A stretch of DNA of 12,570 nucleotides from an uncultured Eubacteriales bacterium (lineage in GTDB: Bacteria; Bacillota; Clostridia; Oscillospirales; Oscillospiraceae). The notes beneath the pieces are model-generated. The model was not told where the DNA came from, did no database searches, and saw nothing but the letters and a program-made list of their open reading frames with translations. The translations under genes were made by a program, and so were the position numbers. Positions 11,182 through 12,570 of this stretch are shown here, piece by piece (within the stretch, counting starts at the first letter, position 1; every line of letters begins with the position of its first letter). The DNA is taken from NCBI GenBank assembly GCA_900544295.1, contig UQUO01000057.1, positions 1 through 12,570 on the forward strand, given 5' to 3'.

Positions 11182-11241
11182 CCGCGGCTTGCTCAAAAAC
11201 CGCGGAAAAGCAAAGGGCCCCCGGAGAGGGGGCCCTTTTTT
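11182..11241 (+). terminator. upp terminator with preceding hairpin
   Basis: GGGCCCCC (11215-11222) pairs with GGGGGCCC (11228-11235) over GGAGA, flanked by AAA on the left and followed by six T's (11236-11241), which is a classic intrinsic terminator. A smaller CCGCGG/CCGCGG stem (11182-11187 with 11200-11205) precedes it. Only 9 nt separate the T-run from the IS30 end. Confidence 0.92.
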
Positions 11242-11250
11242 GCGTGCCGG

Positions 11251-11275
11251 GTGAATTATACTATCAAGTGCAACA
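11251..11275 (+). repeat. IS30 left inverted repeat
   Basis: It begins GTGAATT and ends AAGTGCAACA, matching the reverse complement of 12312-12336 at 19 of 25 positions. The mismatches cluster in the middle (11258-11265). Confidence 0.75.
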
Positions 11276-11295
11276 CTTTAGGGAAATAAAAAAGG

Positions 11296-11364
11296 AGTTC
11301 ATACAGAACCCTGGTAGAATGAAGTTACCACACCACCAAACCACCGGAGGGAACTGTATGAACT
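11296..11364 (+). promoter_or_regulatory. Leader inverted repeat sequestering transposase SD and start codon
   Basis: The left arm 11296-11312 and right arm 11348-11364 are complementary at 15 of 17 positions: an 11-bp stem, an AA/AA internal loop, then a 4-bp stem. The right arm covers the last bases of the GGAGG ribosome binding site (11346-11350) and the whole start codon (11358-11360). A transcript containing both arms should be poorly translated. Confidence 0.75.
11312..11320 (+). promoter_or_regulatory. Possible extended -10 promoter of the transposase
   Basis: TGGTAGAAT gives TG, one base, and TAGAAT (11315-11320), five of six matches to TATAAT. No convincing -35 lies 17 nt upstream. 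A start near 11327 would leave out the left arm of the sequestering stem but keep the ribosome binding site. Confidence 0.35.
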
Positions 11365-12323
11365 ACCATCATCTTACCATAGAAGAGCGCAGTTGTATAC
11401 GGAAATATTATGTGGATGGTCTGAGCTACCGGGAGATTGCCCGGCTGATCGGGAGGAACGTGAGTACGGTGTCGCGGGAGATACGGCGGAACTGCACCCA
11501 CATGTATGACATCCCGACCTACTACCCGCACACGGCGCAGAAGAAGTACCTGCTGCGTCGCTCGTACTGTCACCGGGGGATGTTTCATTCACAAGAGGTG
11601 ATTGACTACATAGAGGAAAAGCTGCGGGCGACCTGGTCGCCGGAGCAGATTGCCTGTAATCCTTGTGAGCTGAAGATGCCAAGCTGGCGTACCATCTACC
11701 GGTGGATCTACGAGAAATACCTGGTAAACGGCAATCTGAAGGTACTGCGCCGCAAAGGAAAGAGCCACGGAGTGAAAGAAACGCGAGGGAAATACAGTAA
11801 GGGAAAGTCGATCCGCAAGAGGGACAAGTCGGTATACAGCCGCCAGGAAGCCGGGCATTGGGAGGCGGATACGGTGGTGAGCGGCCAGGGCAAAAGCAAA
11901 GCCTGCTTTGCCACCCTGGCGGAGCGCAAGACCCGGTTTTACATTGCCGTGAAGATGCCGGACCGACGGGCGGAGACCATGGAGAACGCTATTGTCGCTG
12001 CGCTGTCCGCTTTCCCTCCGCAGCTGGTCAAGACCATTACCTGCGACCGGGGCACAGAGTTCGCCAACTGGCGCCGTATTGAAGAACGATTGCATTGCGA
12101 GGTCTATTTTACCGACCCGTATTGTGCCTGGCAGAAAGGCACAAACGAGAATCTGAACGGCCTGCTCCGGGAGTTTTATCCCAAAGGCAGGAACCTTTCC
12201 CGCGTTGCTCCCGCCACATTAAAACGAAACCTGGCGTTGTTGAACGCCAGGCCTCGCAAAGTTCTGAACTTCCATTCTGCTCAGGAATTATGGGACTTCG
12301 AGCTCAATTCCTGTTGCACTTAG
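11358..12323 (+). CDS. IS30 family transposase
   Basis: This 321-aa DDE transposase has an N-terminal helix-turn-helix region (about 5-45: LTIEERSCIRKYY, LSYREIARLIGRNVSTVSREI) that is typical of IS30 and binds the ends. The RNase-H-like core contains GHWEADTV (D171), ITCDRGTEFA (D230) and TNENLNGLLREFYPKG (E264). The DD(33)E spacing is that of the family, and all three catalytic residues are present. ATG 11358 has GGAGG 7 nt upstream. The frame is open to 11244, but that would run through the left inverted repeat and is not used. No frameshift is seen, so the enzyme is probably functional. Codon use is less GC-biased than in neighbours, consistent with transfer. Confidence 0.95.
   Translation: MNYHHLTIEERSCIRKYYVDGLSYREIARLIGRNVSTVSREIRRNCTHMYDIPTYYPHTAQKKYLLRRSYCHRGMFHSQEVIDYIEEKLRATWSPEQIACNPCELKMPSWRTIYRWIYEKYLVNGNLKVLRRKGKSHGVKETRGKYSKGKSIRKRDKSVYSRQEAGHWEADTVVSGQGKSKACFATLAERKTRFYIAVKMPDRRAETMENAIVAALSAFPPQLVKTITCDRGTEFANWRRIEERLHCEVYFTDPYCAWQKGTNENLNGLLREFYPKGRNLSRVAPATLKRNLALLNARPRKVLNFHSAQELWDFELNSCCT
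12230..12251 (+). other. Perfect hairpin inside the transposase reading frame
   Basis: CCTGGCGTT (12230-12238) and AACGCCAGG (12243-12251) form a 9-bp perfect stem with loop GTTG within codons for the NLALLNARP region. No T-run follows. It may be coincidental or act on the IS transcript. Confidence 0.55.
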
Positions 12324-12336
12324 TTTGACAATTCAC
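12312..12336 (-). repeat. IS30 right inverted repeat
   Basis: The reverse complement begins GTGAATT and ends AAGTGCAACA, as in the left repeat. It contains the transposase stop codon (12321-12323). Confidence 0.78.
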
Positions 12337-12570
12337 TTGCCGCCGCAGTTCCTGCGGGGCGGGGGGAGTATGTTCACCACTGTAGTGACGTCCGAGCGCG
12401 AGCTGCGGGCGGCGGGGGCCGCCCGCAAAGGGGGGACCCCCGGCGAGGGTCCCCCCTTTAACCCCCTCCTGCGCTTTGTGAGCACAAGGAGAGTTCCGCG
12501 CGCTGCGGCGCGCGGCCAAGGGCTCCGCCCCTGGACCCCGCCCGCTTTTTTGTAAAAAAGCGGGGCAAAA
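12337..12570. repeat. Gene-free hairpin cluster
   Basis: No credible gene is present. Hairpins in order are: CCGCAG/CTGCGG (12343-12357, loop TTC), a 13-bp perfect stem (12427-12439 with 12447-12459, loop CCGGCGA), CCGCGCGC/GCGCGCGG (12496-12515, loop TGCG), a short GGGC/GCCC (12520-12530), and a stem of C3GC plus six T's pairing with six A's plus GCG3 (12541-12564). The last two repeat the arrangement at 15-60. The open frame across it (12325-12555) has no ribosome binding site and codes low-complexity sequence. Confidence 0.7.
12431..12477 (-). repeat. Dispersed hairpin repeat, copy B (inverted)
   Basis: The minus strand of this stretch matches 4121-4167 at 41 of 47 positions. Here the hairpin is a perfect 13-bp stem, extending to 12427. 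It lies in the opposite orientation to copy A, about 8.3 kb away. Confidence 0.75.

Follow-up and report, generated by a model that had tools for sequence, protein, structure and literature searches.

An IS30-family insertion sequence (IS) in the analysed window carries, ahead of its transposase gene, a leader hairpin that is a real, selected feature and that probably acts as a fold-back block on translation. The window is the whole stretch of DNA that was analysed, 12,570 nucleotides of contig UQUO01000057.1 from an uncultured Eubacteriales bacterium. Under the proposed mechanism, RNA entering from outside the element carries both arms of the hairpin, would fold and would hide the Shine-Dalgarno (SD) sequence and AUG of the transposase; RNA initiated at an extended -10 box between the arms would lack the left arm and be translatable. 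A host terminator beside the left end and a palindrome acting on antisense RNA would complete the insulation. Computation shows the arms and how they co-vary, the conservation of the -10 box, a predicted change in how accessible the start site is and, in most copies examined, a stem beside the left end; that the block operates in cells is our inference.

The element extends over 1088 bp of the forward strand (11250-12337), from a left inverted repeat (IRL, 11250-11275) to a right inverted repeat (IRR, 12312-12337), each of 26 bp, and is bordered by an exact 5-bp target duplication, TGCCG, at 11245-11249 and 12338-12342. Its transposase reading frame (11358-12323, + strand, 321 aa) contains Pfam HTH_38 at the N-terminus (2.6e-17) and an rve (DDE) core (4.9e-13), which together with the 26-bp terminal inverted repeats identify it as a member of the IS30 family; many relatives of the transposase carry that family's annotation. 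The gene upstream of the element encodes uracil phosphoribosyltransferase (upp; Pfam UPRTase, 4.8e-78). Rfam gives no match to the window at the gathering score.

Relatives were taken as the best 80 of 338 loci from a genome-contig scan, mainly Clostridia metagenome-assembled genomes. These loci and the window yielded 66 leaders after exclusion of 12 whose match did not begin at residue 1 and three (L007, L018 and L033) that end before the IRL; removal of near-duplicates left a non-redundant set of 49. A class-wide search for further copies at E 1e-60 was positive in one of 291 genomes, the centre genome itself. An exact 5-bp duplication is present in 29 of the 54 copies with both flanks, compared with 8 of 2862 non-cognate end pairs, and is absent from the other 25; duplication lengths of 3, 4, 6 and 7 each match in at most one of the 54. 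The group is accordingly regarded as a subgroup apart from Escherichia coli IS30, because its duplication is 5 bp rather than 2 bp. Two loci have unusual ends: in L111 (positions 160-250) the right end is followed after ~5 bp by a left-end-like repeat, resembling a tandem or mini-element adjoining the IS, and the L067 leader has a duplicated IRL, the copies lying 44 bp apart, suggestive of insertion of one element next to the end of another. An upstream in-frame GTG at 11244, which would open a longer reading frame, was rejected as the transposase start since relatives do not keep the left arm in frame with the ATG: the distance between them takes all three frames (20, 16 and 13 of 49 leaders).

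The two arms of the leader hairpin, at 11296-11312 and 11348-11364 on the forward strand, pair at 15 of 17 positions with two A-A mismatches. The right arm overlaps part of the SD sequence GGAGGG (11346-11351) and the ATG at 11358-11360, so that this much of the first-pass annotation, which had proposed the arms and their coverage of the start signals, is borne out. RNA of 11290-11370 (81 nt) folds at -26.8 kcal/mol, against -13.7 +/- 2.9 in 200 dinucleotide shuffles (z -4.5, none as good). The annotation had also called for folding of a longer and a shorter leader, and leaders of this kind differ as expected: 11260-11400 folds better than nearly all shuffles (z -3.0, 2 of 200 as good), whereas 11327-11400, the RNA expected from the inner promoter, folds no better than shuffles (z -0.14).

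Complementarity among relatives, whose absence the annotation had named as one of two refuting outcomes, proves to be strongly maintained through co-variation. Cognate arm duplexes of the 49 leaders average -20.5 kcal/mol, compared with -15.45 +/- 0.36 for permuted arms (z -13.9), and the strongest mean in 10,000 arm permutations is -17.15 kcal/mol. A leader's own left arm ranks first among all partners in 13 of 49 cases, with a median rank of 4 where 24 is expected by chance. On a transposase tree of the 66 leaders, 53 compensatory pair changes (one standard pair swapped for another on both sides) are counted, against 0-10 when the left partner is slid by 1-4 positions, and standard pairs fill 970 of 1188 cells, against 315-538 in the slid registers. 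The register was chosen per sequence for maximal pairing, which favours the column and tree counts and leaves the arm permutation unaffected. By column, numbered with the A of ATG as 0, pairing exceeds all 1000 permutations at offsets -8, -4 to -1 and +4, does not differ from permutations at -10, +6, +8 and +9, and is uninformative at the near-invariant offsets 0-2. Pairing weakens towards the centre of the stem (21 of 49 leaders pair at offset -5), and G-U pairs occur at some outer positions. Some leaders have Ser (ATGAGC) or His (ATGCAT) in place of Asn at codon 2, and their non-coding left arm changes accordingly. The arms are also visible by eye in two viral-contig copies found by their IRL pattern, one of the two contigs having been matched in a separate search as well; one of these copies reads ATGGAC (Asp at codon 2) with a matching left-arm GTCCAT. 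Two marks of fold-back control are found, a distal arm that covers the SD and AUG and a complementarity that is kept by selection.

The hairpin is not confined to this group. Of 19 further IS30-family entries, 12 have a start-codon hairpin equalled by no more than 5 of 300 shuffles, with L081 and L082 counted separately although these elements are near-identical. The positive entries are the phiPV83 and StauST398-4 elements (one IS type), Tenericutes MO-XQ, an S. equinus element, satellite phage Javan285, ISLsa1, IS6770, IS1062, ISApl1, and elements of L. plantarum, L. sakei and L. brevis. The same test is negative in the remaining seven: the IS30 entry L088 from a Leclercia plasmid (at its annotated start 110 of 300 shuffles are as good), ISSba17, ISPsp4, ISPpu17, and one element each from E. 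faecalis, A. baumannii and Rhizobium. Starts were the annotated or match starts, assumed correct, except that a later ATG was used for L081 and L082; the annotated start of L081 (AB044554.1) lies 39 nt upstream of an ATG that has a Shine-Dalgarno sequence and a match to the family N-terminus, and is probably mis-annotated. Two entries, L123 (marked nonfunctional) and L125 (start unclear), stand outside the 19. In ISLsa1, IS6770 and ISApl1 the right arm lies on the SD and AUG even though the arm sequences differ altogether, which implies that the device is either old and fast-changing or has been re-invented.

These comparisons also bear on a reading in which the arms function as DNA, as a cruciform or as an operator bound by the N-terminal helix-turn-helix of the transposase, and pair in RNA incidentally. 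Operators often take the form of inverted repeats close to promoters, and the transposase does have an HTH_38 domain. The arm sequence, however, varies while complementarity stays, unlike a sequence-specific operator, which is rejected on the ground that the arms co-vary; the G-U pairs and the placement of differing right arms over the SD and AUG in IS6770, ISLsa1 and ISApl1 further disfavour a DNA role. A cruciform may be compatible with the co-variation taken by itself. As a whole the DNA reading is judged very improbable, and the RNA hairpin is retained as the interpretation of the arms.

A candidate promoter element lies between the arms. The extended -10 TGGTAGAAT at 11312-11320 on the forward strand, first noticed in the window alone, is present as described and proves to be part of a conserved box: of 66 leaders, 65 have TANAAT between the arms, where 200 mononucleotide shuffles give a mean of 6.1 and a maximum of 14, and 52 have TGNTANAAT (shuffle mean 0.4, maximum 3), leaving 14 leaders without the exact form. 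The box is situated on the 3' side of the core of paired bases in the left arm, and its first base is 13-16 nt from the pairing partner of the A of the start codon in all 49 non-redundant leaders (13 nt in 36), its position being assumed in one of them, L048. The viral copies read TACAAT in one case and TATGAT, which departs from TANAAT, in the other. No -35 for the inner promoter stands out by eye in the leaders, and the promoter would depend on its extended -10. In the window we infer that this box is a working promoter, from which transcripts would start near 11327.

The predicted accessibility of the start site differs between the two kinds of RNA. Opening the SD and AUG costs on average 13.6 kcal/mol in read-through RNA and 4.9 kcal/mol in inner-promoter RNA over the 49 leaders. 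The cost is lower in inner-promoter RNA in every leader, by at least 5 kcal/mol in 39 and by less than that in 10, the window among them. With a foreign left half the mean block drops from 14.4 to 9.4 kcal/mol, and the leader's own half gives the higher value in 40 of 49 cases. For the window, opening costs 14-16 kcal/mol in read-through RNA vs 5-11 in native RNA, varying with the 3' end used; pairing of codons 12-15 with the start region would keep native RNA partly closed there.

The ends of the element suggest a second promoter, one absent from the first-pass annotation, that would start upstream of the left arm. The IRR contains an outward TTGACA (12325-12330 in the window) and the IRL a TATACT (11257-11262), candidate -35 and -10 hexamers that likely form a promoter at the junction of an excised circle. 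TTGACA is present in all 74 IRRs found and TATACT in 62 of 67 IRLs, and most of the differences between IRL and IRR fall in or adjoin these hexamers. A 5-bp spacer between the joined ends, the length of the target duplication, would set the hexamers 19 bp apart, a spacing longer than ideal for sigma-70 promoters. Junction RNA would begin near IRL+20, before the left arm, and would therefore carry the whole hairpin and be folded shut; RNA from IRL+20 is predicted to require 13.9 kcal/mol to open the SD and AUG (mean of 49 leaders), the same degree of block as in read-through RNA. This leaves three readings: muting of the junction promoter by the hairpin, a junction promoter that is weak here, or opening of the hairpin in some other way. 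Promoters formed by joined IS30 ends are already described in the sources drawn on here (PMC9333248, PMC9330008).

This arrangement raises the alternative that the hairpin damps every transposase message, with the real promoter in the IRL or at the circle junction and the TANAAT box secondary. The conserved hexamers, the clustering of end-to-end differences at them and the blocked state of IRL+20 RNA agree with it, and the constant ribosome-site sequestration of IS200 offers a precedent (PMC12594629, PMC3196728). A constant block, however, needs neither a near-invariant box nor the fixed distance of that box from the left arm, and the junction hexamers would be spaced too widely for an ideal promoter. 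Constant damping is hence considered unlikely, if less so than a DNA role of the arms, and the fold-back block, which spares inner-promoter RNA, is preferred.

In the window, a terminator-like hairpin of the host (11212-11241, + strand) stands between the UPRTase gene and the element, with a perfect 11-bp stem at 11212-11238 followed by a T run, 11 nt from the IRL (z -3.3). It belongs to a left-end pattern of the group that the first-pass annotation did not contain. Left flanks of at least 55 bp are available for 64 copies, and 55 of these flanks have a perfect stem of 7 bp or longer, mostly terminator-like; such stems occur in 8 of 71 right flanks and in 11 of 305 control windows placed farther from the element on its left side. 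The longest left-flank stem averages 11.3 over the 64 copies, the stems vary in sequence between copies, and the distance from stem end to IRL is 6-17 nt (8-12 in 50 of 55). Nine copies lack such a stem, three of which (L014, L035 and L070) show an interrupted stem by eye. In both viral copies found by IRL pattern a stem is visible by eye at this place. The stems are flanked by a T run only in 14 cases, an A run only in 6, both in 28 and neither in 7. Upstream-flank genes identified by Pfam at 25 loci are co-directional with the element in 11, opposite in 5 and undecided in 9, in a test that scanned 40 of 50 candidate frames and some loci on one strand only; a crude longest-frame test (34 co-directional, 16 opposite, 25 unclear) was set aside, as it includes some right ends. 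A strict rule by which the element always lies downstream of a co-directional gene's terminator was tried and is not upheld by these run types and gene directions.

The stem lies on the left-end side but the direction of the terminator varies, which points to recognition of shape more than to coupling with an arriving polymerase; selection against harmful insertions could add to the pattern. Terminator siting is not family-wide: four copies of a related element (48-55% identical in their best segment, on two IMG/VR contigs from one sample) and two S. aureus phage copies have the leader hairpin and, by eye, no terminator. The four related copies (L127, L130, L131 and L132) have an A run within ~5 bp of the right end, a different target habit. 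As for the fold-back mechanism put forward in the first-pass annotation, co-variation and the conserved box speak for it, and it is likely right in kind; read-through from upp, given there as the example of an entering transcript, is weakened by the terminator-like hairpin between upp and the element.

A further palindrome, CCTGGCGTT-N4-AACGCCAGG, lies near the 3' end of the transposase gene (12230-12251, minus strand), with an A-rich tract upstream that is U-rich on the minus strand. Minus-strand RNA would form a hairpin followed by this U-rich stretch (z -4.7), and a scan flagged it as terminator-like. The palindrome is present in 74 of 81 sequences, with all 9 pairs in 57, and the A-rich tract is kept in 72 of the 74. 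Two-sided changes affect outer as well as inner pairs of the palindrome, which thus co-varies (CCTGGC/GCCAGG, TCTGGC/GCCAGA, CCTAGC/GCTAGG, GCATT/AATGC). It looks like a terminator for antisense RNA entering from the right, a role that is less certain because protein coding constrains the same bases.

As far as the sequences indicate, the element seems to be insulated from three directions, through its own sequence in two of them and through its site in the third. A broader proposal is advanced tentatively, at somewhat less than even odds: that this IS30 subgroup picks host stem-loops, mostly terminators, by their shape, placing its left end ~10 bp away and using the host terminator as an insulator, that the insulation has three layers, the other two being the fold-back hairpin and the co-varying antisense terminator within the gene, and that the hairpin mutes the element's own circle-junction promoter too. 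A target rule of this kind, with the left end beside a hairpin of any stem sequence, would spare genes and insulate the element. If the transposase reads DNA or RNA shape at terminators, it could be of practical use in placing genes at harmless sites.

In IS10 and IS50, outside RNA folds and transposase translation is blocked, a control known as fold-back inhibition, and general reviews mention start-codon inverted repeats in further elements. Searches of open-access full text showed no earlier description of a start-codon hairpin or of terminator-side targeting in an IS30 member, in agreement with the first-pass annotation, which knew of none for the hairpin. As far as seen, three things are new: how far the hairpin extends through the IS30 family, the position of left ends next to hairpins, and the antisense palindrome. 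The results provide strong comparative evidence for fold-back transposase control beyond IS10 and IS50, including in ISApl1, IS6770 and IS1062, which are elements of medical interest. As in IS10 and IS50, an inverted repeat would surround the native start, outside RNA would hide the start signals and native RNA would hold the distal arm only. Unlike them, the window element belongs to another transposase family and has the -10 itself between the arms, and its support is co-variation over many relatives.

IS200 of Salmonella combines a structure that stops incoming transcripts with a hairpin over the ribosome site (PMC3196728, PMC12594629), and the window element is likewise predicted to have two layers against impinging transcription. 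Both layers are inside IS200, whereas the left terminator-like stem of the window element is host DNA beyond the 5-bp duplication; no terminator of its own was found upstream of the ribosome-site hairpin in the window element. ISPpu9 is inserted at host palindromes and has a structured 5'-UTR that hides the ribosome site, but there, unlike in the window element, structure is present in the native 244-nt leader itself, which is probably opened with the help of an antisense sRNA (PMC8450116).

With respect to siting, group IIC introns have a terminator or attC stem-loop just upstream of their insertion site (PMC7923331); these are retroelements with a partly base-paired target, and the window element is a DDE transposon with a 5-bp duplication. 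IS1272 targets inverted repeats and is reported to replace the repeat and leave no duplication (PMC5678879). The window group, unlike IS1272, keeps the stem ~10 bp outside its left end and makes a 5-bp duplication, and repeat replacement of that type is not seen among its copies, where the stem stands beside the element and 29 of 54 carry the duplication. A survey of IS neighbourhoods describes orientation biases by family and, in the part consulted, no hairpin-side rule (PMC9208149).

A further known system is E. coli IS30, with which the window element shares an IS30-family transposase and ends that could form a junction promoter. E. coli IS30 makes 2-bp target duplications, uses hot spots or its own inverted repeats as targets and obtains high transposase from its junction promoter, Pjunc (PMC9333248); it also has an antisense RNA (Arini 1997, as cited in PMC8450116). 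The window element differs in its 5-bp duplication, and its hairpin would silence junction RNA, which in E. coli IS30 is a strong source of transposase (PMC9333248).
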